This document shows, one piece after another, positions 351 to 34,320 of a stretch of DNA of 64,000 nucleotides. Origin of the DNA: Tricholoma matsutake (Eukaryota > Basidiomycota > Agaricomycetes > Agaricales > Tricholomataceae); contig AP026547.1 of assembly GCA_026075535.2 (NCBI GenBank), positions 2,790,001 to 2,854,000 of the forward strand, written 5' to 3'. The first letter of the stretch is position 1, and every line of letters starts with the position of its first letter. The position numbers were made by a program, and so were the translations under genes. Below the pieces are notes generated by a model. It made no database searches. It was not told the origin of the DNA and saw only the letters and a list, made by a program, of their open reading frames with translations.

Positions 351-851
351 TGATCCCCATTTCCACCCCATGAGCAGTTGCTCGTGGCAGCAGTTGGGTC
401 CTCAGGTCCTCCTCCTGGTCATTGTCATCATTCCACCCACTATCCACCCCACGAGCAGTTGCTCGTGAGGCTGGGGTGGGTGGTGTGCCATCATGATGTG
501 GCAGTGTTGGTGTGGGGTCATTCCATGTGAGCTCCTCATTCCTAGGGAATTCCAATCTAGGAAATGAAAGAAACAAAATAGTTAGTTTACAAAAAAAGAA
601 ACAAACAAAAAAAAAACTTACCATGGGCCCAAATGACACCGGGTGATGTGGCACTGTTGGGTGTGTGTCGTTAGCTGTCATCATCCATTATTATCAGTAG
701 TTTAGAACCTGAAAAAGAAGAAACATAATCAATTAGTTTACAAAAAACAAGAAATGAAACACAAAAAAACTTACTATAGGCCCAAATGACAATTCACGTC
801 GGTTGGGCCATGCTATGGTGGTAGTTGGATCATCGTATAGTTTAGAATCAG
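351..851 (-). repeat. Diverged transposon-type repeat, same family as 40.5-41.2 kb
   Basis: Read on the minus strand, this stretch has blocks such as GTGCCACATCA, TTTGGGCCCA and CAGGTTCTAA next to A/T tracts, in the same style as 40,600-41,010 inside the non-autonomous hAT element. It is therefore probably a second, inverted copy of that repeat's inner part. Open frames here are low-complexity and unsupported. Confidence 0.45.
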
Positions 852-1793
852 ATGTGTCATGAGTATTCAACAAGGTCAGATGATTACTCACCTGACCAAA
901 ATCTGGGTACTGGCATACCTGCACATACCCATAACACCATGGAAAAGGGTACGGTGTTGCCCAGGTATGGCAATCCCATACCCATGACTGGAAACACACC
1001 ATGTTACCTGTACCCGTGTCGTGCCCTAGGAATGATGAATGCCAAGACTGCCCCAACTCCTCTTCCCATGGGATATGTCCCTATGGAAAATACTGCAGTG
1101 CCTGATGCAGCACATAGATCGAAGTATCAATCTGTGATTGGGTCTTTATTGTACCTGATGCTCGGAACGCAACCTGATATCGCCTTTGCAGTAATCAAGA
1201 TGTCGCAGTTCTCAGCTGATCCAAGCCAGGAACATCTGGATAAGGCACATTATATAATGCACTACCTTGTTGGTACTCAGAATTATGAGCTTATCTACGA
1301 TGGTAAGGGCAAGGAAGGCCTACAAGCATACACAGATTCGGACTGGGCATCCGACATAGTGAAACGAAGATCTACAATGGGCTACTTTGCCACCTTAGCA
1401 GGAGGCATTGTGTGCTGGCAGTCCCATTTGCAAAAACCTGTTGCACTGAGTTCCACTGAAGCTGAATACATGGCTCTCTCCAACACATGTCAGCAGATCG
1501 TGTGGATCTCGTCCCTTTTTTCTGAATTGGGATATACCCTGAAGTACATACCTATTTGGGCTGACAATCAGGGGTCAATCTTTATCGGATCAAACCCAGT
1601 TCAAGAAAGAAGGACCAAACATATCGACATTCACTATCATTATACACGTGAATGTATTGAATATGGCAAGGTCACTGTCATATTCATCCTGGGAAGTGAG
1701 AACCCAGCCAATATGTTTACTAAAAATCTCGGGAGAATTCTCTTCGAGAAATTTAGAAGCTCCCTCAGAATTAAATTTGAGGTTCAAACTTAG
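852..1793 (+). pseudogene. Ty1/Copia polyprotein 3' remnant (RT C-terminus and RNase H)
   Basis: The frame from about 1,045 reads as the end of a Copia polyprotein. It has the RT C-terminal YQSVIGSLLYL and PDIAFAV blocks, then RNase H with YTDSDWASD, the STEAEYMAL motif, the DNQGS motif and a TKHIDIHYHY segment. It closes just before a purine-rich tract and an LTR, as expected at the 3' end of a Copia element. Gag, protease, integrase and most of RT are missing upstream, so this is a 5'-truncated relic. The first ~60 codons of the frame do not look like Copia and are probably flanking repeat. Confidence 0.85.
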
Positions 1794-5095: not shown

Positions 5096-7076
5096 TTACA
5101 GCATTCCTTTCACGATTCGTACCATCGCCTTTGTCCAGAATCTCACCTTACGTTCTCTTCCCCTCCAATCAACAGCATGGGTTCTCAATTTCTCGATCTC
5201 ATAGGCTAGACGATGGCGAAGTGACATCATAGCCACTGTATTGTCGCTGGCCATCGTCATAGATCCCTGCACTTCCTTGGAAGGATGTACATCGCCTGAA
5301 TGATGGTCAGAAGGTACAGGAACCACCATTATAAATGATAATTCGGTATCGATATGTGCCGAACGGGAGTTGAGGTTGGTAGAGCCAAAAAGTGTGAGGA
5401 CCGGTGGGGATGCTGCATTCGGCGAGACCCATATGCCTGATAAACTGATGTCAGGTTTTGAATAAGATAAAACGGAGGATGGCAACCGACCCTTTGCGTG
5501 ATACGTCCAGCCTTCCTTTTCCCATTCACTCAGCTGAACTCCTCTACCAGCGCCATCGTTGCAAGATGCATTCCAAAGACGACCAGCTTTCGTAACTGCT
5601 GTCATGAAACGCTGTTCTAGAAGAGTATAACCCTCAGGTATCCGACCTGATAAACCAGTTGACCCATAAAATCCATTTGCCTTGCAAGAATAAGCATAGG
5701 CGTGTTGTTTGAAGACTGAGGAACAGCGTGATCATTTACCTTAGGTCCTGCAGCAACGATCCGTGTCGCCACATCGCTTGCTAGTATGTGCTCCTGATAG
5801 GGCTGATAAAGTCCGAAATATCCACTGGTGAGGTCAACGAGAGGCCGAATGGGAGTAGGAGTTTCCGGCATTTTGGAGTCGAGAAGCCGGAAGAGAAGAG
5901 CTAGCGCCGTCTCCTCTTCTCGAATGTTAAACTGACCCGCTTGAATGATAGGGAAGATAAGAACGTTATCAAATTCGACAGAATATTGGCTTGACGCAGC
6001 CCCAACATCCTTCGTAATAGTGTGTGGTTCTGGGGTGCGACGGGAAAGTTGGAAATCACAAAGAGCCCTTTGTGCTTTTTGATGAATCTGATGAGGGTGC
6101 GTTTGTGGATCAGGCCAGTGTAGGGTGTAATCTTCATGTTCATAGGTGTACGGGGTAGTGGTGGACGAAGGCGACGGCAGTAACCTGTAAGAAAACGTGG
6201 AGATGGTTTGCAAAAAATCGAAACAGTACTGCGCGAGTTGTGGCTGAGCTGAAAAGTGTATGTACCGATCCTGCCGATTTGTGAAATATGATTGGTTAAG
6301 GTTAGCCCTGGGTCACGCAGATATAATCAGTAGATGTTCAGGTGGGAATGTTGCAAATTGGTTGAAGGAAAATTTTGCGTATTGTATTGGCCTAAACTGT
6401 TCACTCACCCACTAATCATCACTTCGTCATCTACCCCATATATTTTCGCATGCCACGTTCCCCAGCCTTCATTGAAACGTGGTGGCACTAGCTTTGCTAG
6501 GATTCCACGCAGGTGTGGGCTGCGGAACAATGAAACGTGTACACGAGATGGGAAGGCACGTATGAGTGGCAACAGTATCCTTGCGGTAGAAGATGGCCCA
6601 GGGCGCGTAGAACGATTTAGGTCTAGATTAAAATACAATTGTAATGAGGGTTTCTCTTGGAGCACTTCGTGGAGAGTCGTTATCTATGACATAAATTAAA
6701 ACCAATCTTACAGAAATAAAAAAGTGGGGTACGAGTTCGGATCGTGCTGAACCGATATAAAGTGAGGATATGAAGATGCGTTTCTCCGCACGGTGGATCA
6801 TAGCCTAAGGATTTAGAAAGAGAAATATCAAAATTTAAATTGAGATGCTGTAAAAACAAAACGGACCAGCAAAAGTGCGTAAAACTGCGGTGGTTCACAC
6901 AGCACAGATATGCTGGTTGGCGAGACTGAGAACTTTGGATGTCTCTGTGCGAGATTTGACATGAATTCGCGCACAGATGGATCGATGCGCAGGATAGAAA
7001 TGTATCGTATACATTGTTGTACGCGAATGCATCGCGTTGGTGTCCACAGTCTTCTACGAGCAGCAGCCAGGAACAT
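5096..7076 (-). CDS. PGS1: CDP-diacylglycerol--glycerol-3-phosphate 3-phosphatidyltransferase (phosphatidylglycerophosphate synthase), 5 exons
   Basis: This enzyme makes phosphatidylglycerophosphate from CDP-diacylglycerol and glycerol-3-phosphate, the committed step to cardiolipin in mitochondria. Exons read 7076-6867, 6804-6733, 6683-6409, 6307-5740 and 5680-5096. All junctions are GT-AG and keep frame, giving 569 residues, a usual PGS1 length. The N-terminus (MFLAAARRRLWTPTRC) is Arg-rich and acidic-free, like a mitochondrial presequence. An in-frame Met at 7,106 would add 10 residues. Family marks include RIFISSLYIG, LDLNRSTRPGPSST, the first HKD motif HAKIYGVD (His about 172) followed by GANL, then NRQDRY, LTSGYFGL, and a second motif YHAKG (His about 436) with GSTNLNSRS. 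The second HKD lacks the following Asp, which I believe is usual for PGS1. The 3' end matches the Trp-Arg-Gly-rich tail of fungal homologues. The gene looks intact. Confidence 0.93.
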
Positions 7077-13090: not shown

Positions 13091-14129
13091 TTAGTATTCA
13101 ACCTTGTTATTTGCATCCTCCCTGCAAGTCTTCCCACAAAAATAATCCGATTCACTTTGAGGAAGAGTCAAGCACATGATACAAGGCGACACCAGCCCAG
13201 ATGCCACTGCCTTCCTGTGATGGAAGCACGACATGTCTGTAAGCGTAATGCTGGATTCCAGAAGTCGATCAACTCACTCCCGGTGTTTCATTGAGCAATA
13301 GTCGCTCGTCCTCATGCCTTTGGCGTCTACGTGTACAGGTTGGTCGCAATCTGGTATAAGACATGTGGTAGAGTCAACGGCTGGCTGGGTGCTAACGTGG
13401 AGCTGTTGAGTGGCAGGCAGGGTGTTTGAAGTAACCAATGTACCATTCGCTGCCGGAGCCTGCACATTATTCAGTCCACCGAGGAATGGGTTCCTGGACT
13501 GTGTTGCAGGAACAGCCTGTGGAGCAGGAGCAGGAGCCATAGGTACAGCGTTTGCTATTGGCGCGCTAGGTGTATATGTTCCTGCGAGCAGAGTTTGCAC
13601 CTGAGGAATATGTTGGGCGATGAGCTCTATGAAATCATATTTGATCGAGATAGAGTGAGACTCGATTAGAATTTACGTACTGGCAATCTGCAAGGGATCG
13701 ATGCCGAGTTGTGACTGTTGAGGCTGGGTGTTGAAATTCTTGCCTTTGGGGTAATTTTGGCCCTTGGAAGCTGTGGCAGCCTGGGGTTGTCCAGCGGCTG
13801 CTGCAGACTTGTGAGACTGTGGGTTTGCTAGGGCGGCACAAGCCTTGCCGCAGTAATCAAAATTGGGGAATTTGGTTTTCTTGTGACAATGCTACGAGAA
13901 AACTCAGCTTTCAAGATAGTCGGAATCGAGAACACTTACGTTACACAGGTTCGCCGCAGCTTGACCTGCACATGTCTTGGAACAATAGTCATGATTTGGG
14001 AATTTCGGCTTCTGGTGACAATACTGGAGTCGCCTGATCGTCAGGACAATTAAGAAAGGCAAGAAACTATGAGAAACGCACGTCACAAGGTTGAGTAGCT
14101 GGCTGAACTGTTTGCGGACGGGTCGACAT
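13091..14129 (-). CDS. Serial zinc-module protein related to the adjacent PARPs but lacking the PARP domain, 5 exons
   Basis: Exons 14129-14082, 14023-13940, 13891-13681, 13626-13278 and 13214-13091 give 271 residues. Four Cys-rich modules are visible. Two are tandem copies of CxxCHxKxKFxNxDYCxKxCA, each with its first Cys in one exon and the rest in the next. The third is CLIPDCDQPVHVD followed by SDYCSMKHRE. The fourth is CIMCLTLPQSESDYFCGKTC. A Pro/Ala/Gln-rich linker joins modules two and three. The same module order precedes the catalytic domain in the PARP gene at 18,481. Here the protein stops a few residues after module four, just where the paralogue runs on to its catalytic region. 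It could be a natural regulator or adaptor, or a truncated paralogue. Zinc binding is inferred from Cys spacing. Confidence 0.75.
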
Positions 14130-14347
14130 TGTATTCGCGATGTCTATCTGAAGGTGTAGCCACGTACTTTAATACTACCAACACGGATGGAACACACGAG
14201 GATGCCTGCGAGTAGCTGGAATGAATCGTAGAGGCAGTACAAACAGATGATTCTAGCATATATACACGTGGTGAGGAATGCTACGGAACGTGAAAACATC
14301 AAAGGAGCAGGGCAAATTCAACGAGGCATGATCGACAACCACTCCAA

Positions 14348-15373
14348 TCAGGCCTCGAGTTTCGCCCTGAGCCTTTCGAGTGCCTTCCCTAGCTCATTGC
14401 GACCTCGCCCGTCAGGGCCCACACCCCAAAAAGCATCCTTATCGGAGTCCTGCAACACAGCTATTAGAACATGCAGGATCCGAAAATAAAATGATTGAAC
14501 CTCAACAAGCTCCGCATCACCAGTTGCTAATAATTCTGATTTTAAATCGGAATGCTGTGTGAACTTGTGCCAAAGGGCTTCATCCATCTGGCATATCTAG
14601 GGCTTAGCATCAAATATAGCCAGATCTAGGCGTCAGATTCACCTTCTGGACGTTGACTTGCTTCCAGTCTTGTCGCACTTCAGGTTGAAAGCGACGAGCC
14701 TCCGAGAAAGCAACACTCGGTCTCTCTGAGCATGTTCGAATATGTTCTGCCAGATTAGGACGATGATCCTGGAACTTTGAACGAAGAAAAATGAGTGGGA
14801 TCCAGACGTTCCACAAGACATACTGACTTTGAACGACTGAAAGAGATGCTCGCTGGTCGGGTATCTCTTGCCTTTATAGACAACGGGATGTTCGGAAAAG
14901 TTGGTGAATCCGTAGTGTGGATCATGCTTGTGATAGAATAATATTCGAGGCCGCACCATGGTACGCGGCGAGCTTCTTCGTGGAGAATCGGTATACGTGC
15001 CCAAAGTTGCCGTAGGCACAAATTCAGAGCGACGCGATCTGTAGTTGATGTTCCGAGGAGATTGTGCCCGCGCGTCTGCCACACCTGTGGCGGTCGAGTC
15101 CTCTGATGTCAACACTTGTGCATCTACGCTGAGAGTCTGGGTTAAGTGAGTCGGCGCCTGTGTCGTCTCAGCTTCTTCTGCCAATGAGAATATCTGATCC
15201 AAACTATGCTCCCACTGAGATGGGGAAAGGTCGGAGGTCACATAAACTGTACGACTGCGCTCTTCGATGCGATACTGAACGGGGCCTTTGGAGGTGGGCG
15301 ATGTACACCCCGGGAGTGGTTTCGTCGCTGCTGTAGGCGATGTCATGATAGTGATAGTCTTATGGGAATGCAT
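14348..15373 (-). CDS. NADAR-domain protein (YbiA/RibX superfamily, candidate ADP-ribose N-glycosidase), 4 exons
   Basis: Exons 15373-14828, 14774-14643, 14587-14501 and 14449-14348 are each a multiple of three bases and give 288 residues. Residues about 144-285 form a NADAR domain: ILFYHKHDPHYGFTNFSEHP, then the signature YPTSEHLFQSFK (Glu about 175, the conserved acidic residue of the family), and the closing block FWGVGPDGRGRNELGKALER. Characterised NADAR members cleave N-glycosidic bonds of riboflavin intermediates (RibX type) or remove ADP-ribose from guanine in DarT-NADAR systems. The first ~140 residues are Ser/Thr/Pro-rich and probably disordered. A second in-frame Met (15,346) is possible. 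It is divergent from a PARP gene and followed downstream by a PARP-like zinc-module gene, which argues for an ADP-ribose role over a riboflavin role. That is inference from context. Confidence 0.9.
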
Positions 15374-15653
15374 ATCCACTAGTATGTAAATAGACTCGAG
15401 AGTTCTGTTTACAGAGATCCGACTTATACCGTGATGATGACCCTTGTTAGGAGATCCATCAGCCGGCATGCTACATCGATATCAGAATGAGCCGCCCTGC
15501 ACTTGGACAGCCTTAGAACAACGTTTTGCCTCTTGTGGGAGCGTGGTGCATAAGTATGGGCGTCGGAGTCGTGGATATCGTCAGCCTGAGGTTCAGTGGT
15601 GTGACTGTGTGTGACGTCACAGTAATCTTCTCTCTCACTTCCACCCTTATCGC
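15374..15653. promoter_or_regulatory. Bidirectional promoter between NADAR and PARP genes
   Basis: The two start codons are 280 bp apart and face away from each other. A CRE-like TGACGTCA lies at about 15,612. A minus-strand open frame crosses the interval (15,684-15,424), but its best donor does not join the NADAR frame, so I do not include it as an exon. Confidence 0.6.
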
Positions 15654-16931
15654 ATGATGGCAACTGCCAACGAGGACCCGGCATGGGAGGACGTTGCTAC
15701 CTCACAGATTTTAGATGTTTTAGAATAAACGTGGGGAGTCGTGACATTTTTGTCACGTAAAAGGGTCAAGCTCTGCCCCTGCCCCCTACGAGTACATTAA
15801 AATGTATTCCAGGAGCGATTTGAGCAGCGCTTCATGCCCACGTTTCAATCGATGGACGATTTCTTCAGTTTTGATAACCCCAAGAATTCTGCCAACGGCA
15901 GGTGGAACAGGCTTGCCCTTCTTCCAACTTCTGACCCTTACTATTCCCGAGGTGTGTGTCATTTAAACGTTGCTCAGGATACACTAGTCTAATCTGACGT
16001 CAGTGGAGAGGAAGTTCAATAAAGGTTGGAAGCATCCCGACAAGCCTAAGCCTCAAGTTCACGCTATCTTCAAGATTTTGTCCTCATCGGAAAGCCTCAG
16101 AAAGTACGAACAATACAAGTAATTCACGAATCAAATCTTTGTTACCATTGCAGTGCTCAAATGAGCTATAGGGCGCGCGTAGTTGCTGCTCCAAGCGTTC
16201 CAAACTCCAGATACCCGGGAAACGAGAAATTACTTTTCCACGGTACCAGCCGCTGCTGCTTGCTGGCAGAGGACAGCAGGAGCGTAGCTCTGTGTAGTCT
16301 TCCGGAGTGTTGTTTGTGTTGCGTTATACGCAACTCCTTCGATATCCTGAGATGTGGTTCGTAATTTGATTATACATGCAGAGCATCTTTTTCATCTGGA
16401 TACGCAGGGATGAAACATCAGTTTCGGAGGTAACAACACTGTTTATTCTGCAACCCATCCAACTAACGCAAGTTTTAGATTTGGGACCGGCATATATACC
16501 ACGTCATGTTCATCAAGTATACAGCTCTTGTTTCCCCATCTCTTCTGTTTACCATTGTCGTATTTTCAGAAGCAGATGATTATTCCTTCAATGCGGCCAA
16601 GAATTCTAACTTTAGGATGATTTTGGTTAACCGCGTTGTCGTCGGGAAACCTTGTAAGCGGCGACAGAATGCTACAAATATTACAGAACCACCATGCGGT
16701 CATCATTCTGTAAGACCTTCGTGCGAAATTCAGGTTTCCATGCTTAACTTGTTCTCTCTCTAGATTGTAGGCATACCCGGCCATGATCTCAACTACCCAG
16801 AAACCGTCGTATACGACAATGATGCCATTCGTCCCGCTTTTCTCGTCGTATATGGGGACACTTCAGACAAGGAGAACCACAGATTGCGTACATTGATATC
16901 AACATGGTTCAAGACTCCGGTAGCGTCATAA
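15654..16931 (+). CDS. PARP-type ADP-ribosyltransferase, short form without zinc modules, 8 exons
   Basis: Exons read 15654-15716 (weakly supported), 15813-15951, 16004-16118, 16154-16356, 16408-16429, 16479-16516, 16570-16709 and 16764-16931, giving 295 residues. From 15,813 every junction keeps frame and matches the phase of the paralogue at 18,481. The catalytic core has LLFHGTSR (His about 135), a Cys-rich loop CSLPECCLCC, RRFGTGIYTTSCSSK (Tyr about 187) and YPETVVYDNDAIRP (Glu about 253), a complete His-Tyr-Glu triad. That fold transfers ADP-ribose from NAD+; Glu is expected in elongating enzymes, but mono- versus poly-activity cannot be told. No zinc modules precede the core. The first exon relies on a poor donor (GTTTTA); the true start may be the Met near 15,834 instead. 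It is divergent from the NADAR gene and convergent, 103 bp apart, with the next PARP. Confidence 0.85.
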
Positions 16932-17034
16932 TAACTGGATTCTCTCTGAAGATGAGCGTTGTACTGAATATCTTATGAAGTCACGGTATATAGAGTATCT
17001 AGATCCAAATTTCACTGGTATTATGCACTTCCCA

Positions 17035-18242
17035 CTACGCCTCTTTGGTATACATGATGACATACACGGGGAGAATGGCATCTGCCATTGGGGCAAAAAC
17101 CGATTCCGTTTCAGTCGACTAAAATCACACGTTAGCGCAACTCTATTCATACCTGTTTATCACCTACTTCAGTACTTCCTGGCGTCCCCGGTTCAACAAC
17201 AAGATCACAAGCTATCATTACGCGATACGGGGAAGAGGTGCAAGATGTTGCGAAGTTATCGGCGAGAGCTGGATTACGGTAAGAATATATCCCATCGCCG
17301 AATCTGATGCCCGGTGAACCCGATTTCCTGAAGTCTAGAATCATGACTTACCTCCCATTATTGTAGGGCTCTCCGAATGCAAAAGCCTTGAACGAAGATT
17401 TGATCACGCAGCATATCCCACATGACTTGAAGCTGCATAACGTCGAGTCTTTGAATCCTAAGTCGCAGATGCATTGAGAACTGTGAAAGGTACGGATCTC
17501 TTCCCATTTCGCTCGACTTGCCCTGTCCTTTAAGTGTCAGGTGCGCGTTTCCAGATCACATCGACGACTTACCGATAAGTGTCGTGTTTTGTGCGTACGT
17601 CGCGAGGGACTATAATCTCATATGCCTTTTCTAGGATGGGTGTGCTATCTGACTCCCATTCACTGAGGAATTGTGCCCGTACTGGAGAGAAACGAAGATG
17701 GGTAAGCTGTGATCGAAAGGAAACCTTTGGGACGGACGATTTTTGAAGGTTGACCCGTCCACTTTCAATTCTTTGATAAGGGTTGCAATTCGTGACCGGC
17801 GATCGCATGAAATGCACAGGTCGCCAACGGTGCGTGGCTGCATGTTACAACTGTAGCAACCCTCCACAATGCTCTGGCGTACACCTTCCCTGATATGTCA
17901 CTTCAAGCTTGTGGAATTAATGATTAATCAAGTTTAGGCTGACCTTGCATGTGCCTCTGAGCAGAAGTTAGCAAAGGCAGGTTTGCCTGTTGCGCGACAT
18001 TCATGAAGTAAACACCCAGCCGGATTTGACCCGGTCCCATTGCGTGCGCAGCTCCTGCTGCAATACGGATGCTTGAAGCCCTTTTCGACGAATTTAGGTT
18101 TCTTGCCACATATCTAAAGATGACTGTCGGTGCCATTCAACAAAGAATAGCCAGTTGTCTTTACCTCGCACAAGTCTGAGGGAGGGGTTCTTGTTCTCTG
18201 ATTCGACCCCCAGTTTACGACGGTCTTGACTATGGAGGGCAT
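17035..18242 (-). CDS. Zinc-module PARP-type ADP-ribosyltransferase, 7 exons, 304 aa
   Basis: Exons 18242-18165, 18113-17944, 17889-17738, 17681-17573, 17522-17352, 17303-17153 and 17118-17035 join in frame; the last intron is only 34 bp. The N-terminus has three Cys modules: CEICGKKPKF with PYCSRSCA, then CLLHECRATG with FCSEAHA, then CYSCNMQPRTVGDLCISCD. The catalytic region follows: FKNLRAQFLSEW, then TFHSSQCICDLG (His about 183), CGICCVIKSSF, GRFGDGIYSYRNPALAD (Tyr about 233), SPYRVMIACDLVV, and TESVFAPMADAILP (Glu about 282). His is followed by Ser-Ser rather than Gly-Thr. It is more diverged than the other two copies (NPALAD block, short C-terminus) and so may be a separate subfamily. 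It is head-to-head with the next PARP. Confidence 0.88.
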
Positions 18243-18480
18243 TGTAGAAGTTTTAGTCTAGAAAGCGAGAGCACTCGTGTAGATAAGGGCTTCAAGGGAT
18301 TCGCCTGATTGACGCCACGCTTCATCCTCGTTGCTACGTCAGGGTTGGCTGAGGATGCCGTTTAACTCATGGCAAGCATCAAGTTTCGCTTTGTGTTTAT
18401 AAATTGCCGCCTGATATCCAGTTATCCTACTGCAGAACTATATCACTTCTCACCCGGGTCAATCCCACGTATAGAGTCAA
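18243..18480. promoter_or_regulatory. Bidirectional promoter between two PARP genes
   Basis: 238 bp separates the divergent start codons at 18,242 (minus) and 18,481 (plus). No operator was recognised. Confidence 0.55.
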
Positions 18481-20273
18481 ATGGCGTCTGCCATCCCGAT
18501 GGCATTGTCACTTCTCCATACTATGGCTTCGCAATACCAGAATCCCGGGAATCCTGCACCTACGGCTGCGCCCTCTGCGGGTGGGAACGGCGCGCCTCCT
18601 TCGGCCCCTGTGAATATTCCTGGCGCATTACCCAACAGCCCTCCGCCCGCCAGCGGGCTTGGAGTGAGTCCGAATAATAATTCGAATTCACTCTCAGGGA
18701 TGTGCATTGTGAGTCTCATTCAAGTCATTAGACAATAATCTAACTGACTGCGATGCGCCCAAAATTTATGCAGCACTGTCACCAGCGCCTCAAACACTAT
18801 GATGGGATTAAGATGCATTCGTATTGTAGCAAGTCATGCGCCAATCAAGCGAAGGTTAGCACGACTAATGGATCGTCGACATCGGGAACTTGTGACGTAC
18901 GTCCCGATAATCTGTTAGCACAGATTAGAATTTGACAATCCATATCGTACCAATCTAGTATTGCAACAAGCGACCCAAATTCTTTGACGGTGTGCAGACC
19001 CACCCATATTGCAGTAAGGCGTGTGCAGCAGGCAGTGGTAAGACTGCACCACGGAAACAAAACACGACGAACGGTAACAGCAAAGGTACGACGCTAGATA
19101 ATATTCTGTCCTACTTCTGGAATTACCTTCCAAGGTACTTGCCTGGTGTCGGGGTGTCAGAAACCATGTTATACGAACGCCAATGGGACTATCGGGGACT
19201 ATTGTAGCCAGGCTCATAAGACGTGCATTTTTCGTCCGCATAGTGTATTTCGAAAGCTAATGTCTTGTCCTCAGGCTTGGAGAGACTATTTGTTTGATGT
19301 GTCGTAAAGTCCCTAAAGCACCGAATTCGCACTTTTGTGGCCAGACTTGTAGCGACGACGCGGAAAAGAATGGACCTATGCTACTAGAGATTCCGATCGG
19401 CCATGTGACCTTCAAAAGTGGTGCGTAGCATCGTGGCATTTGGTCGGATACATACCACTGATATTCTTCCAGTTGCAGATCAGTTTAAGACATCATGGAG
19501 GCACTTAGGGAAGACTTGTCCTCCTGTGCGACGCGTGTACAAAATTCTGGCTCCACAAGCGTCCCTTTCCAGCTACAATGCATACCGGTAGATGACAGCA
19601 TTCCCCGTTTATATCTGGTTTCAATCACTGATCGTTTCATCAGCGCTGCGGTTGAAGCTCGTGGACAATTCGTGTCTCAAGGCCGCTCTGCTGGGAACGA
19701 GAACCGGCGATGGCACGGCACGCGCCGAGAATGCAGTTTGGGCGACAAGGGTAACACAACCTTCTGCGGTTCATCTACTTGTTCTCTTTGCTGCATTGTA
19801 AAGACGTCATACGACCTGAGCCTTTGGGGAAAGAAGACAGGATGGGGGAGGTAAGAGTTTCTCCCCCCCTTCTGGAAACGTATAACTCTCACTAACTCAC
19901 GAAGATTTGGTAAAGGCATTTATACCTCCTCAACGTCTTCAAAGTAAGTGGTCATTATGTCTGATTATTACTTTTAATTGATTTGCCAGGTCGCATGATT
20001 ATTCCCAAAATGATTGTAAATCTTCATTGAAGGCGATGCTCTTAAATAAGGTGGTTGTTGGCAAGGGGTGCAAAATGATACAGGACTTTACCACGTTGAC
20101 AGGGCCTCCTCCTGGCTACGACTCAGTGCGTCCCCACTGAAGCAAATTATCTCGTTGTCTAAACTTGTTTCCAGGTGCTGGCCGAGAAGGGGGGGACCCT
20201 AAATTATGACGAGTTGGTCGTTTACAGGAATGATGCCATCAGGCCGTCCTACCTTGTCATGTACGAACTATAA
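18481..20273 (+). CDS. Full-length zinc-module PARP-type ADP-ribosyltransferase, 10 exons, 435 aa
   Basis: Exons 18481-18708, 18774-18896, 18959-19085, 19135-19222, 19275-19420, 19473-19587, 19644-19850, 19905-19943, 19990-20125 and 20175-20273 all join in frame. Residues 1-75 are Pro/Ala/Gly/Asn-rich. Two tandem modules (CIHCHQRLKHYDG with SYCSKSCA; CDYCNKRPKFFDG with PYCSKACA) are followed by CLVSGCQKPC with DYCSQAHK and by CLMCRKVPKAPNSHFCGQTC. A linker GHVTFKSVADQFKTSWRH leads to the core: RRWHGTRRECSLG (His about 300), WGRFGKGIYTSSTSSK (Tyr about 351), LLNKVVVGKG, and YDELVVYRNDAIRPSYL (Glu about 416). The triad is intact. The zinc modules probably guide it to a nucleic acid or protein partner (inference). 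It is convergent, 95 bp apart, with the MARVEL-like gene. Confidence 0.92.
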
Positions 20274-25232: not shown

Positions 25233-28200
25233 TAAGGCTCCAACTGTTCTATCTATATAACCATCTTAAACAGTTTATACTGTATATGTATATGTTTATG
25301 TATAGAGTCTGATCTCCAACATGGCATACACAGTAGGTATACAGTAGGTAGATGGTTATACAGTTTACATATGCGAGATACAAACGTAATAGTGACAATG
25401 GACATCAATAGCTTAAATCTAAAACTATACACACTAAAGCCTAAAACTATATACACTAAAAGCCTGTTTCAAAGTTATGGCTCAAGTGTTTCAGTGACTA
25501 TATGACTAACCACCAGAGCCACGACAATCCTGACCCAAAAAACATCATACCTGATGACCAAAAGCAGAAGCGAAATGCCACTGATCACGCTCAGGGTCTT
25601 GATCCTTATTATAAAACTGTTGAAGCTACAACGAAACCTTGCCAAGGTCAAGGTTAGCGTTAAATTCAGGAATTTGGCATAAATTCTTACCATGTTGATT
25701 TGCAGAACCATGGCCTAGTCTTAAAATCAACATACTGAAAGATGCTTCCAAGCCTTATGGTGACACTGTTGAGAATAGTGCCTTGCTATCTGCAAGCGAG
25801 CTCCATACACGCGGTCACTTTGTCAATTCTCCATCAGACATTGCACCTATCCTTGGCGCCAAGACCAAGGACACTGACAATGATCTGAAGGACAAATCAT
25901 ATCAACCGCTGAAACGTAGCAATGCACTGGATGACGAGGCACCAGAGTGCATATACACTAGTGATGGGGAAGAGGCTATTAGTGAGACTGACTTTGGCCA
26001 TGAACTGGTAGGTGGACCTGAAATATGAGTGATCTATTCTAACACACATTAGCAAGAGAAAAGGGAAGAGAAACAAAAGTGTAAGGCTGATAACCAACTG
26101 AAAGGACAACCACCAAAAAAGAAAGCTCCAGCAATCAAGACAGCTCATAATACCCAGCAGGAGGAACTTAATGACGATGTGTGTGTTGATATCGATTCTG
26201 GTGATGAATCAGATGGGAGAAGTGCATTGAGGGGAGTAGAAGTGAAGGAAGAGCTGAGAGCTGCACGCCGCAGTCCTGGAAACGCAAGCATGCAACATTT
26301 TCACGATCCTATGGCTATTGTGGACCAGTTGGGGCAGAAGTGTTGGGAATTCCAGTGTTGCTTCTGTGCTTGGTGCATCAAAAACAGTATATTGAGTGAA
26401 CAGTAATGCTTACCACTGGTCAAACAGTACACGCAGCTTCCCAAGGACTGTCAATGGTCATGGTGAGGATGTCACATTTGATATGGAGCCGAAGCTCCCA
26501 AAGCTACACAACCTTGCTGGGCACATAACAGAATGTAAAGGAGCTAAAGATGATAAGAAGTACGAACCAACCAGCAAGGAACAAATCAATGTAAAGTGCA
26601 GTGTGGAGATGATGGAGGTATACTTGAAGGAGGGCAAGCTGAATCCAGAAATTGTTGCCATGTATAGAGGGTTCCTATGTATCTTTTCAGCGTGGATCTT
26701 TGATGAAAGTCTCCCATGGACTACTGGAGAGGCGCCGACTCTTCAGATGTTCTTCAAATATCTCAAAATCACATACCAGTTGCCCTCTGATACTACAGTC
26801 CGCAACCAGCTAGCATATATCTTTGAGGAGCTTCACAGAAAGGTTGTTCGTGAATTTGTGGTAAGCATTTTCTTTTGAATCTCCAAATGCTCTAGGTTTC
26901 TAATTCCTTGGGTTCTCTCAGGCAGTCAAGTCCAAGATCACATATGCAACTGATACATGGACTACACCACAGATGGTGTATACATTTGCATGCTCAGTCA
27001 GGTGTTTAATAAACGATGACTGGGAAATAATCGAGTGGGTGATCAATTTCAAGCCTCTTGAAGAGAAGGAGCATGAAGGCTTGTATGGCGGCAAGGCATT
27101 TGTCGATGGTGCATGCAAGGTTGGAAGTCTCAACAAGATAAGTCTATCATGTGACTCTGGTCTCTTGGTAACTGCTTACCTCTGCTGCACTGCATCAGCA
27201 TTTCAACTGACAATGCATCTGTCAACGACATTATTATTTCGACTGTTGCTCGCATCCTTTTGGCGAAATATGGAATACCTCCGTCGCCTAACCTACACAT
27301 TTGCTGTTTGTGCCACGTAGTCAACCTCGTTGTTCAAGCGATACTTGCAGCCCTTGGAGAAGCAGACAATCCTGATGAAGTCGATTACTACAAGCTCAAT
27401 AAGGAACAGCTGTTTCATCTTGACATTGATGCCAATCCTGATCAGGTTGAGTTGGACAGTGAAGAATTCCAGGATGAGGAGGATGAGACTGTTGAGCCAA
27501 CTCCTGAAGAGAATGTCACCTTGGAAGAAGAAGAGAAGTTGAAGGCTATAGAGAGCCCACTATCAAAGGTGCATATCTCAATTCTCAGTTGGGAAATTCT
27601 TGTATTTTGGCATGCTAATGTTCATATTAGCTACGCTATATCATGAACAAAATTGTCTCGTCACCCCAGCAATGGAAGAAGTTCTGTAAATGCACAATCT
27701 CAATATACTACAAGAAAAACTTGGAGCACAAGGACAGGTGAGAGGCCTTGGCAGTGGTTTGAGATGTCTGTACACGTTGGAACTATACACATGTGATGAT
27801 TCGTCGAGCTGAGCTTTTAAAAGAAGTCAGTTCCAAACACACTATATTTTTTGTAACATCTGATATTCTCTTGCAGGCTATTGATGACTGGGTTTTCAAG
27901 ACACCCAGTCTCCATGCATTACTGTTGAATGAGGATGAATGGAAAACATTGAGAGAAATAGCTGACGTTCTAGAGGTGCATCTAGTATTACTTCATTATA
28001 ACAACTTTCTCTAACCACTGCAGCAGCCATTCACCGAGGTGACTCTGCAGATGTCGCATAGTGACGTCCCCACAATTCCATTTGTATTACCTCTTTATCA
28101 GAAGATGGAAATGCACCTCGAGGCTGTCTCAATTTCCTGGGATCACTCATTCAAGATACGGAACACTGCTGAACAGGGCCTTGTGAAGCTTCGGAAATAC

Positions 28201-29127
28201 TCTGCCCCCACAAAACTGCATCATTCCTATATCCTTGGGACTGGTAAGCCATATCGTCCTCCCAATCTCAATCTGAGATAACACATTTTATAGTTTTACA
28301 CCCATGTCTGCAGAGCCACTGGTTTGCAGCCACAGCTGATCCAAATGACACCAATGCACAAGAAGAAGCCATCAAAACTGCTGAGATCATCTTCAAATAT
28401 ATTGCCGAGACTTACCTTGCAATGCCAACATCACCCACCCCAACCACTGTTCCCAGACCAGCCGCAAAGCCTGTAGTGAAGACACCATCATTTCTTGCCA
28501 GCACTTGCTCTTTCCAGCAACTGACTACTGCTGCTACAATGCTGATCTTGAAGCACACTCCACAAGAAGACCTAGCTGACGAATTGACATGCTATTTCAA
28601 CTTCAACGTGGCACCAATTGAGAGGCAAGAAGGAGAGGAGGAAAGTAGTGACAAGCCATCAGCTCAAGAGGTGTTATTGAATCTGCTCTTGTGGTGGAAG
28701 GTGCATACTCTATTTATATGCCTATATCTGACCTCTGATAATCTCTATTCAGAAACATGCTTCTGAATTCCCTATCATTGCTCAGATGGCTCGCGACTAT
28801 CTTGCCATTCCTGCGACAAGTGTCTCTGTTGAATGAGTCTTCTCAAAGTCTTGACACATTTGTAGCAATTTATGCAGCTCTTTGAAGGAGAGAACTATGA
28901 TGATGGCATTACTAACAAAGGTTTGGATATGAAGCGGGCTGTTCGAGATGATGCCACCAAAGATACTGCGATGGAAGCATGGTGACAATGGAACAAAATA
29001 ATATTAGTATTACAACTGTTTACATAACCGTTTATTAAACATATTTAGATGGTTACACTGTTTATGCAACTGTTTATGTATACTTGGCCTTCGGCGAGTA
29101 AACATATACTAAACAGTTGGAGCCTTA
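25233..29127 (+). mobile_element. hAT DNA transposon, 3.9 kb, decayed
   Basis: The element has perfect 16 bp terminal inverted repeats (TAAGGCTCCAACTGTT) at 25,233-25,248 and 29,112-29,127. It is flanked by the identical 8 bp duplication CTTCCCAC at 25,225-25,232 and 29,128-29,135, the hAT hallmark. Subterminal regions hold several ACTGTTTAT/ATAAACAGT-type motifs. A hAT transposase relic lies inside. Confidence 0.92.
25783..28985 (+). pseudogene. hAT transposase, BED-type N-terminus and dimerisation domain, inactivated
   Basis: The product would cut and paste the enclosing element. Pieces in order: an acidic N-terminus; a BED-like end segment LHNLAGHITECKGAKDD at about 26,500; RNase H-fold blocks including ATDTWTTPQMVYTF (about 26,950), LCHVVNLVVQAI (about 27,307) and an acidic insert at 27,420-27,560; then DEWKTLREIADVLE; and the hAT C-terminal dimerisation motif LLWWKKHASEFPIIAQMARD with LAIPATSVSVE at about 28,690-28,835. 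Several introns are implied. In the conserved end motif, two Arg codons are replaced by TGA (about 28,836 and 28,851), so the copy is dead. Confidence 0.85.
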
Positions 29128-29558: not shown

Positions 29559-30183
29559 TGTCATGACCTGATTCACCTGACCAGATTTTCGATATTTTCC
29601 TCCAATTTGTCCAGCTGCCTTGCAGCACTGCTTACTTCCTAAATGGAGCATAGCCTGGTGATGTCATTTTCATTATGATGAGGCAGTTCTAGGACATTGC
29701 CTCCAGAGGCTGGTTACTAGCTATGACTGCCTCAGAAATTCTAGTTACTTCTGGACCTTAGTATCTAGCTTAGCCATTTCTGTCTTGTATTAGACAGTTT
29801 GTAAATCAACCAAGTTATCCAACATTTATAGTCTCAATCAAAGTCCCAACAAAGTCTCTACCAAAGTCTTGCTCACTTTATTGCAGAAATCTTCTGGAAA
29901 CCCCAACTTCCTCCTGACCCCTTGTCTTGAAATTAGGACACTTGATGAGGAGAAGGGTGCAACTTCTTACAAGTTGAAGCCAAGTCCTTTCCATACCCCT
30001 TGCAGTTGGTGTGTCATACCAAGTGGATTCTGTCTTCAGACTCCACCCAAATTCCTTTCCCTTCCCTATTTCCTCATACCTCCTTGACATCTTCTGACCA
30101 GATCCACCCAAAACTCCAACATTTTCCCAACCCTCAGCCCCTATTCAAGCTAGTAGAATCTACACCTCTAACACTGCTCGACA
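29559..30183 (+). repeat. LTR related to the 41-52 kb chromovirus LTR
   Basis: The stretch begins TGTCATGACC and ends near GACA. It shares with the LTRs at 41,193 and 51,206 the upstream phrase GGAAATACTGTCA and the downstream block CTTGTCTTGAAATTAGGACA, followed by TTCTTACAAGTTGAAGCCAA (TTCTTATAAGCTGAAGCCAA in the other copies). It is a diverged relative or solo LTR of the same superfamily. The 3' end is approximate. Confidence 0.6.
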
Positions 30184-33100
30184 ATGGCAACATGCCACAG
30201 CTCAACCAGCAATTGAATTGATTTGGACAAAAGAATATTCAAACGTGAACAGAATTGCCGAACGTGATCACTTAACGGATGAAAATTGGCATGAATGGAA
30301 AGAGAGAATGAAAAGGGTATTTATCAATTGTGATATAACTGGATATACTACTGGCAGTGTGAAACGACCAGATGAAACCATAGATCCCATTAACACAAAT
30401 AACTGGGACAAAAACGACTCTTGGGTGCAACAAGTAATCATGCACAATGTCACCTCCTTGCAAATGAATCACGTCAGATCAAAAACATCAGCTGAAGCGA
30501 TGTATTTGGTGCTTATGGTCACTCACAAGAACAAGGCACATCAAACAGTAAATCATATATAGTGCCTGTTATATGAGACCAAGATACTCGACGGAGATGA
30601 TCTCCTAAAGCATCTTGACACACTTAAATCATATTGCGACCACATCAATAAATTCCCCAACCCTGAATTCCATGTCTCAGACACCCGCTTCAAAGCAATT
30701 ATTTCAGTGTCTTTACCTTTGTCTTGGCAGACTTACGTCAAACCCTATAATGGGAATGCCAATAATCCCAATGATCCAGACCCCAAAAGGAAAATGTCCT
30801 CAGATTCCTTTATTGGGTTATTATGGGAGGAATATAAAATTTGTATGACATGCTCTCATAACAAGTATTCTAATGGTTCTAGCACAAACCTGGTTAATAC
30901 CCAGAAGAATAGTGGAACTAACAAAACCTTGGAAGAGTGCATCACAGATCATAAAGCCTCCAACAAACCTTATTGCGAACATTGTAAGCGACCAGGACAT
31001 TGGTCAAGTAAATGTCACAAATATGCCGGTAACAAATGTCGGAACTGTGGAAAAATAGGACATAAGGAAAGAGATTGTTGGAGGAAAAAGAAGGGCAAAG
31101 AGAAGCAAAAAGCCAGATCAAAGAAGGGTACCGAGGATTCGAATGTGGGGGAGGAATTGATTGCATTTCCAGTAAATGAAGAACTTTACAATTTTGACAC
31201 ATACGAAGCCTGTAACCTTGATGGAAATGACGAGTGATTGATCTGGTATGACTGGTTAGCTGATTCAGCAACAACTTCACATGTTATGCATCAAAGAGAA
31301 GCCTTTATTGTGTACACACCTGTGGAAAAATGTTCCATAACAGGTGTAGGTGGTAAAGAAGTGACAATTGAGGGCCACGGAACTGTTGAGTTAATTTTGA
31401 CATGTAATGGTCATGATTATATTTTGTGCTTGGAGGACGTACTCCACATACCTGGAACACAGAATAATTTGATTTTGTTTGGGTGATGGGATGCAGCTGG
31501 CGGGAAATATACAGGTGGAAAGGGAAGAATTACCTTTATCACTAAAGAGGGGAAGAAAATAGTGCAAGGGAACAAGGTTAACAACCACTTATACAAGATG
31601 GAATTAACTGTGTGCGACTGACACCCAATGCTTACAATAGAAGGTGACAATCACCGATCATTCATCAATAATGATGCGGCACTCAATTGGGAAACCTGGC
31701 ACAGACGCTTTGGTCATGTCGGGTATTCTGGCCTGCAGAAATTATTGGATAGGAATTTGGTCAATGGATTCAACATCGATAAACACAGTCCTAAACCAGA
31801 CTGTATTGCATGTACCAAAGCAAAGCAGCACATAGAACCCTTTCCTAAATTGTCCACACAACAAACAGAACCCGGAGAATTGACGCATATTGACTTATGG
31901 AGAAAATATGTGATCAAATCTATAAATGGAAATCAATACTACTTGCTATTTGTGGACAATGCTAAATGCTACATAACCATCCAGTGTTTGAAAGAGAAAT
32001 TGGACTCAATGCAAGCAGTAATAAATTATTTGGCACATCTAATAACTCAGGGCCAAAAACTGAAGGGGATCCAAATTGATTGCAGAAAGGAATTTGTAAA
32101 TGAGAAGTTGGAAAAATGGTGTAGTGAATGCAGTATAGAAGTAAGACTAACTGCACCATACTCACCTTCACAGAATGGCATTGTGGAGCGGATGAATAGG
32201 ACTCTTGTTGAACTATCATGCACCATGATAACTGCCAACCAACTTCCTAAATTTCTATGGGAATATGCAGTTTTGCATGCGGCTTACCTTTGTAACTGAT
32301 CATTTATGAAACATCTCCCAAAATCAACACCTTACAAAGGATGGTATAAAATAAAACCCAATGTATCGCATTTACAGGAATTTGGAAGCCACATGTGGAT
32401 ATTACTACAAGGTCAAAAGAAACCCCAAAAAATGCGACCAAAATCAAAATGCCAAGCATATGTCAGCTATGATGATGGTGCTGGGGCAGTGAAATATTAC
32501 ATTGTGGAAACTTGCAAAGTACTTACCTCTTGCAACTTCCAGAACATTGCACCTTCAGAACGACCTAAAACTCCTGACCATATTGGGGAGTCTGCAGGTA
32601 GCACACCGCCAATGGGTGTAACAGATTCTGATGATACAACTCGGAACCTTGCATCCAAGAAGCAAAAATGGAATGAAACACAGGAAGATATAGACATTGA
32701 TGAACCGTGGAAGATGCATGGAACTCGTACCAATTATAAGCACCTTCACAATCCTTTTGCATATGAGGAAGATGACAATTTCTTATCAATAGAAGAAGTC
32801 TACGCAATTGTTGCTGGAGATGAACTTACAAGTCTTGAAGATGCAAAGAACTCCCCAGATTGGCCTGAATGGCAAAAGGCCATGAAGACTGAATTGGATT
32901 TATTGCTGGAGAAGGGGACTTGGGAACTCATCCAGAAACCTCATGATGCAGTACCAATCAAAAATAAATGGATCTTTGTCAAGAAGCGCAATAAAGAAGG
33001 GGAAGTAGTAAGGGATTGAGCAAGATTAGTGGCGAAAGGATATGCACAACGACCCAGATTTGATTATAGGGAAACATTTTCACCGGTTGTCAGGATGGAT

Positions 33101-34320
33101 ACATTACGTGCAATACTAGCTCTCGTACCAGAAAAGGGACTCAAGTTACAACAAATAGATGTAAAGGGCACGTATCTAAATGGCACTTTGCAATATGCAA
33201 CAGCCTGAAGGATGTGAAGATGGAATGGGTCGAGTATGCAGGTTAGTCAAATCACTTTATGGTTTAAAGCAGGCAGGCCAAGAGTGGAATATTGAACTTG
33301 ATGGCAAACTCAAAGTCCACAGCTATGCACACTTACTTTCTGATCCATGCACATATATAAGACACGATGGTGATGACTTCGGAATAATGGCTATCTGGGT
33401 GGACAACTCACTACTTTTTGCTTCATCTGATAAAATGATGGATCATATGAAAGAAACACTCTGCTCAGAATGGGAAGTAACAGATCTTGGAGAACCAAGT
33501 AAAATTGTTGGCATTGAAGTTACACAAACCGAGAAGGCAATAACGATATCTCAACAGAGATATATTGAAAATATTCTCCATAATGAACAAATAGCTGATG
33601 CAAATCCTACTGGTATACCCCAATATAAAGCTTGGACCTAATCTGGATGATAATGAACCCAATCGAAGCAATTCATATGCACGATTATTAGGGAGTCTGC
33701 AATTTTTGGCAAATTCCACAAGACCGGATATAAGCTATGCAGTTAATAAACTGGTCGCCTACACTGCAAACCCAGGTTTAAAACACCATGGTGCAATAAA
33801 GTGAATACTCAGATACCTGGCAGGTACAAAAACTCTAGGGATCACATATAGAAAATCCCAAGATGAAACTGGAACCAAAAACCTCTTCCACAGATATGCA
33901 GATGCTGCATATGCAAATGCCGATGACCTCAAATCCACGACTGGCTACATTTTTCTAGCAGCAGGGGGAGCAATCACATGGAAGTCAAAGAAACAAACTG
34001 TGATAGCATTGTCCTCTACAGAAGCAGAATATGTAGCACTGTCAGAGGCTGGACGCAAGGTGACATGGCTGAGAAATTTGTACAGTGAACTTGGATTCCC
34101 ACAAAATTCACCGACAGAAATTAAAAGTGATAATGAAGGATCCATAATATTGACACACAACCCTCAATTTCACCAGTGATCAAAACATATTGCTATTTGC
34201 CATCACTAGGTCCAAACTCTAGTAACTGACAAAATAATTGATATACAAAACTGTCGTGACCCAGAACAAACAGCAGACGTGTTAACGAAGGCATTACCAA
34301 GGCCTAAATATATGTGACAT
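30184..34320 (+). pseudogene. Ty1/Copia gag-pol, nearly complete but multiply broken
   Basis: Domain order is Copia type. Gag (30,218-31,150) ends with two CCHC knuckles (CEHCKRPGHWSSKC; CRNCGKIGHKERDC). Protease follows with WLADSATTSHV (about 31,255). Integrase (31,628-32,299) has an HHCC zinc site (HRRFGHVG to CIACTKAK) and NGIVERMNRT. RT (32,860-33,800) has [21 protein letters not shown] and the catalytic box WVDNSLLF in place of YVDD. RNase H (33,890-34,320) includes STEAEYVAL. TGA stops replace expected Arg or other codons (for example about 33,018, 33,802 and 34,178). No matching 5' LTR was found: the frame starts directly after the unrelated LTR at 29.6-30.2 kb. Confidence 0.85.

Follow-up and report, generated by a model that had tools for sequence, protein, structure and literature searches.

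The stretch of DNA analyzed here (the window) comprises 64,000 nucleotides of Tricholoma matsutake, positions 2790001-2854000 of contig C10 (AP026547.1) in the assembly that we searched (161,040,721 bases, 13 contigs), and it carries a compact cluster of five genes, A to E, at window positions 13091-20273 (Table 1). A NADAR protein (gene B) adjoins PARP-type proteins (genes C, D, and E) and a zinc-module protein (gene A), and we see about an even chance that the cluster is a functional ADP-ribosylation writer/eraser module of mushroom-forming fungi. An earlier sequence-only reading had proposed five neighboring genes including a NADAR gene, and hand-built models with GT-AG introns and 0 internal stops bear this out. 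Comparison with database proteins, which covers B and E of the five models, appears to support their splicing: gene B is identical to protein P0121 across all 288 residues and gene E to P0001 across 429 residues, although these records may not be independent. The start of gene C is uncertain, because C-type homologues begin around residue 24-26 of our model. Genes A and B are separated by 218 bp and C and D by 103 bp; the two head-to-head gaps are possible candidate shared promoters, judging from their lengths.

Table 1. Genes and head-to-head intergenic gaps of the cluster, in window positions
Feature	Position	Strand	Length and exons	Character
Gene A	13091..14129	-	271 aa; exons 14082-14129, 13940-14023, 13681-13891, 13278-13626, 13091-13214	zinc modules, without PARP domain
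Gene B	14348..15373	-	288 aa; exons 14828-15373, 14643-14774, 14501-14587, 14348-14449	YbiA-type NADAR, conserved N-terminal stretch
B-C intergenic	15374..15653	.	280 bp	genes head to head
Gene C	15654..16931	+	287 aa, start uncertain; exons 15654-15692, 15813-15951, 16004-16118, 16154-16356, 16408-16429, 16479-16516, 16570-16709, 16764-16931	PARP without zinc modules
Gene D	17035..18242	-	304 aa; exons 18165-18242, 17944-18113, 17763-17889, 17573-17706, 17352-17522, 17153-17303, 17035-17118	one zinc module and diverged PARP
D-E intergenic	18243..18480	.	238 bp	genes head to head
Gene E	18481..20273	+	435 aa; exons 18481-18708, 18774-18896, 18959-19085, 19135-19222, 19275-19420, 19473-19587, 19644-19850, 19905-19943, 19990-20125, 20175-20273	zinc modules and PARP

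Genes C and E are PARPs by both domain and catalytic residues. A Pfam scan of the first gene models (E then 421 aa) finds the PARP domain in C (3.7e-13) and E (4.3e-11), and the H-Y-E triad is present as H127/Y179/E245 in C and H300/Y351/E416 in E, the latter residues being kept in 59, 59, and 58 of 59 aligned rows; this combination places both proteins in the PARP/ARTD superfamily. Gene D has a triad (H183/Y233/E282) but a Pfam PARP match of only 0.26, below cut-off (11.2 bits versus 26.7 required); its alignment with gene E (27% over 328 columns, 1e-32) suggests a diverged relative of the E-type PARP. The triads of D and E are those given in the sequence-only reading, which for C had named the same residues under numbers eight higher (135/187/253), as the start differs; its count of three PARP catalytic domains is good for C and E and doubtful for D, which looks catalytically degenerate. 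The predicted fold of P0001, near-identical to gene E, is closest to tankyrase, and the best single-sequence PDB match of gene E is PARP13/ZAP (1.3e-8). The alignment of gene C with tankyrase-1 covers the Tyr and Glu regions, with the His region as a weak separate piece. Unlike tankyrase and PARP13, the cluster PARPs show no ankyrin or CCCH domains in the Pfam scan, and a Cys-rich stretch between His and Tyr is a feature of their own. No WGR, PRD, or UBCc domain is found in C, D, or E, a Pfam scan to an E-value of 10 yielding just PARP and one weak DUF7576 match.

Several homologues are composite. P0002 from Gymnopilus dilepis and P0003 from Psilocybe cyanescens each combine a C-type with an E-type PARP; these are probably gene-prediction mergers, and the joining suggests that C and E also adjoin in these two species. 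P0011, P0070, and P0120 (from Thelephora terrestris and Daedalea quercina) carry two zinc-PARP cores per chain, either as tandem fusions or as gene-prediction mergers.

By one pattern, gene A has three zinc modules, E has two, D has one, and C and B have none. Gene A has no PARP domain and nothing above the Pfam cut-off; its likeness is to the zinc-module part of E (36% over 64 aa, 8e-11; 41% over 69 columns, 1.6e-8), as expected of the zinc-module paralogue that the sequence-only reading had seen in it. The zinc modules of the cluster match no known Pfam family above cut-off; the FCS/MYM-type model zf-FCS matches 5 of 27 E-type proteins at an E-value of 1 or less (best 0.0064), and other zinc models are equally weak.

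Gene B belongs to the NADAR superfamily (Pfam NADAR 2.7e-36 with the first model of 291 aa, and a YbiA fold in the predicted structure) and, within it, to the YbiA subfamily, by the Glu, typical of the YbiA family, that it carries at the E125 position; of 59 aligned rows, 58 have this Glu and one has a gap. Its N-terminal part includes a conserved stretch, residues 64-102 of P0121, predicted as a beta-hairpin and helix (pLDDT about 82-85) and joined to the NADAR domain by a poorly predicted linker; a structure search with this stretch gave no trustworthy match. Tandem double-NADAR proteins occur in Mycena, Cyathus, and Crucibulum (P0124, P0125, P0126, P0143, P0150, P0155, P0156, P0179, P0209, and P0234), and in Crucibulum laeve and Cyathus striatus the double-NADAR protein shares a contig with the PARP and the single NADAR.

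A zinc-NADAR fusion is present elsewhere in the same genome, on contig C2 (G000:C2:6667670-6669132(-), locus L042). Its eight exons with GT-AG introns encode, in an intact frame, 356 aa consisting of three zinc modules followed by a NADAR domain, the NADAR part being 80% identical to gene B over 148 aa and the zinc part being closest, among the window proteins, to D (58% over 36 aa, 1e-10). Over the 148 codons compared with B, dN is 0.13 and dS is not computable; because we read the latter as saturation, the comparison speaks for constraint on this part of the protein. No PARP-domain match turned up near the fusion when C, D, and E served as queries. A second candidate is P0180 (388 aa; 4 member sequences, 1579-base contig), in which a B-type NADAR is followed by two A-like zinc modules, the same B-A order as in the window; either a genuine fusion or read-through between neighboring genes may account for it, and it is the only protein with zinc modules, by the pattern, among the best 120 of 877 NADAR homologues.

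Linkage of the PARP and NADAR genes in other species was scored by taking same-species records whose longest contigs are equal in size as lying on one contig; coincidences of size between PARP and NADAR rows of different species numbered 0. We used 102 of the 120 rows listed for the PARP and 84 of the 120 listed for the NADAR (the best 120 of 877), the rest being without species name or contig size. Among these listed matches, to which all species counts given here refer, PARP and NADAR lie on one contig in 41 of the 49 species having both, whereas chance would give 1.1 to 2.9 species (assuming genome sizes from 100 down to 35 Mb). The smallest contig carrying both has 15,866 bases, and the gene numbers of the two differ by 1 to 3 in Leucocoprinus birnbaumii, Amanita phalloides, Coprinopsis cinerea, and Stygiomarasmius scandens. 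A single control gene was used, the lipid synthesis gene PGS1 (CDP-diacylglycerol-glycerol-3-phosphate 3-phosphatidyltransferase; window about 5096-6800(-)), which is more distant from C and E than B is (116 of 120 listed rows, 115 species). Within Agaricales, contigs are shared by PARP and NADAR in 36/44 species, by PARP and PGS1 in 32/43, and by NADAR and PGS1 in 35/48; outside Agaricales the corresponding counts are 5/5, 0/6, and 0/5 (p 0.002 for the first two). The five species outside Agaricales belong to Panus, Abortiporus, Somion, Rickenella, and Jaapia; all three records are available for four of them, and all four keep the PARP-NADAR pair without PGS1. The 41/49 figure was consequently dropped as decisive evidence for Agaricales after the PGS1 control, and the claim of special PARP-NADAR linkage, limited to non-Agaricales, depends on a small number of species and a single control. 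An absence of linkage in related genomes, which would have refuted the sequence-only reading, was not seen, but inside Agaricales PGS1 shares contigs with the PARP or NADAR at a similar rate.

Some of the misses in these counts are doubtful. Agaricus bisporus, Ephemerocybe angulata, and Lentinula raphanica, where locus-tag series or strains differ, were kept as misses, as was Coprinopsis cinerea, where the tags CC1G_11638/11641 adjoin but the longest-contig values differ. For Mycena capillaripes and M. epipterygia, the NADAR matches are double-NADAR paralogues aligned at half coverage, and the orthologue may rank beyond the best 120 of 877; for Agrocybe pediades, PGS1 was scored as lying elsewhere, again from records whose series differ. 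Lyophyllum shimeji and Dendrothele bispora are the only two that look like straightforward misses. Taxonomic order was looked up for eight species of a list of ten, Piloderma and Cerrena entering no paired count; for all species beyond that list we took the usual placement with respect to Agaricales.

A YbiA-type NADAR beside H-Y-E PARPs and related zinc modules fits a writer/eraser module, for which we infer that the proteins are active and that B acts on the product of C or E. In such a module, E and C would transfer ADP-ribose from NAD+ onto a target, which E would locate via its zinc modules, as A perhaps does by binding alone, and from which B would strip the ADP-ribose; D, as a diverged PARP, may be left with a binding or regulatory role only. 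A shared kind of zinc targeting part would then serve the PARPs and, at C2, a NADAR. We propose guanine in nucleic acid as the target because tested NADARs act on the guanine linkage; for C and E this is a guess that we consider possible though doubtful, and the ligand residues of gene B suggest a guanine-ADP-ribose (guanine-ADPr) hydrolase. The wider proposal is likewise tentative: an ancient reversible nucleic-acid ADP-ribosylation in which zinc-module PARPs write on DNA or RNA guanine, the linked NADAR erases, and related zinc modules aid both.

Comparable pairs are known from bacteria. The available text of Cihlova et al. (2024; PMC11125620) describes YarT-YbiA as a myxobacterial toxin-antitoxin pair of an H-Y-[E/D/Q] ADP-ribosyltransferase (ART) and a YbiA-family NADAR, and reports that all four NADAR types tested, YbiA included, cleave guanine-ADPr in vitro. 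In plan, as distinct from sequence, the cluster resembles that pair, a YbiA-family NADAR adjoining an H-Y-[E/D/Q]-clade ART; it differs in that YarT-YbiA, as described there, is bacterial with one small ART toxin, whereas the cluster has several PARP-fold writers, some zinc-bearing. DarT1 modifies guanine in DNA and its partner NADAR frees the guanine, according to the accessible portion of Schuller et al. (2023; PMC11543638); that NADAR is of the BC4488 family with a catalytic Asp, where gene B has the YbiA-family Glu, and the writers of the cluster are PARP-type rather than DarT-type, as the sequence-only reading had stated. Guanosine in RNA was freed by NADARs alone among the tested hydrolases, and phosphate-end ADP-ribose was not attacked, in the available part of PMC11833690. 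Gene B differs from E. coli YbiA and flavin-pathway NADARs in its long N-terminal part with the conserved stretch and in its PARP neighbors. With fungal PARPs of Clades 1 and 6A, as defined in the available text of Citarelli et al. (2010; PMC2964712), the cluster shares the PARP catalytic domain; by Pfam domains, C, D, and E have neither the WGR/PRD of Clade 1 nor the UBCc of Clade 6A, keeping H-Y-E with zinc modules instead (none in C). The domains of the zinc-PARPs are thus at odds with the statement there that Clades 1 and 6 are the only PARPs encoded by fungi. Among the matches listed in open-licence full-text literature (NADAR, YbiA, DUF1768, and PARP with fungi or mushrooms), no paper on a fungal PARP-NADAR pair was found.

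Several observations weigh against the writer/eraser module. The nearest PDB entry to gene B is E. coli YbiA (42% identity), gene B lacks residues K75, Y84, D86, and R93 of the oomycete NADAR, and the YbiA-like class lies near flavin-biosynthetic NADARs of plants and fungi in the classification available from PMC11543638. PARP-NADAR and PARP-PGS1 linkage do not differ in Agaricales (p 0.45), and because the unrelated PGS1 is linked about as often there, the 36 Agaricales among the 41 linked species carry little weight; the greater distance of PGS1 also favors B in the comparison. Gene numbers of PARP and NADAR differ by 18 in Amanita inopinata and by 20 in Psilocybe cyanescens, and Lyophyllum shimeji retains the PARP with PGS1, its listed NADAR being elsewhere. 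Because the cluster has D and B on the same strand, arranged like their counterparts in the C2 protein, the fusion could derive from a cluster duplicate with internal loss, which would explain its origin, not its upkeep.

Much of this is shared ground with an explanation that we regard as a genuine but lesser possibility, namely that B is a riboflavin-intermediate N-glycosidase like E. coli YbiA, and adjoins the PARPs through slow decay of gene order. The Agaricales counts, the likeness of gene B to YbiA down to the Glu at the E125 position, and the placing of YbiA-like proteins near flavin NADARs all agree with it, and NADAR homologues P0144, P0204, and P0232 bear a riboflavin-enzyme name (one source). 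It accounts poorly for the contrast between PARP-NADAR and PARP-PGS1 outside Agaricales and for the existence of a zinc-NADAR fusion; further NADARs in the genome could cover flavin metabolism, and YbiA is among the types that cleaved guanine-ADPr. Two further alternatives go back to the sequence-only reading and strike us as improbable. A toxin-antitoxin or selfish element in conflict between nuclei, with the PARPs as poison and the NADAR as protection, would match the plan of the DarT1-NADAR and YarT-YbiA pairs as their papers' available text gives it; nothing else was found in its support, and the joint occurrence in 41/49 species, with named records from 86 (PARP) and 74 (NADAR) species, is a spread closer to that of a retained function than to that of a selfish element with patchy distribution. 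A defense role, in which PARPs that bind nucleic acid would act on mycoviruses or transposons in the manner of vertebrate PARP13/ZAP, seems very unlikely as well: the best PDB match of gene E is PARP13/ZAP and zinc modules could bind nucleic acid, but the fold matches tankyrase best, the modules match no known family above cut-off, cluster genes show no expansion in the exon-by-exon searches of this genome, transposons nearby are expected where repeats are rich, and we found nothing more in its favor.

If the writer/eraser module is real, eukaryotes would have a counterpart to the ART-NADAR pairs of bacteria, with a writer domain make-up outside both published fungal PARP clades. Distant mushrooms share the pairing, which may therefore be a reversible tagging system such as has been known only in bacteria until now. 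The linked PARP would be a concrete candidate writer for NADARs without a DarT1 tie, whose physiological targets the available part of PMC11543638 calls unknown, in organisms open to culture and editing, and endogenous base ADP-ribosylation in eukaryotes would become testable with a handful of proteins.

Used as queries against the whole genome, A, C, D, and E found nothing similar beyond the cluster except the zinc modules on contig C2, in exon-by-exon searches that scored the best candidates only and that a diverged copy could escape. One further PARP, on contig C3, matches PF00644 and reads as a classical PARP by eye; the PF00644 search that found it did not pick up the cluster PARPs. NADARs occur at four loci: the cluster, one on C2, and two on C6 (G000:C6:3225614-3226066(-) and G000:C6:9267883-9268356(+)). 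Of the two C6 NADARs, one has an open frame of 448 aa that includes a long N-terminal part, and the other has a 176 aa frame, which scores 172 bits on the Pfam NADAR model versus 126 for gene B. Elsewhere in the first ~36 kb of the window, the open frames at 846-1793(+), 26053-28766(+), and 30098-34179(+) are presumably pieces of Copia-type and hAT-type transposons, which they resemble.

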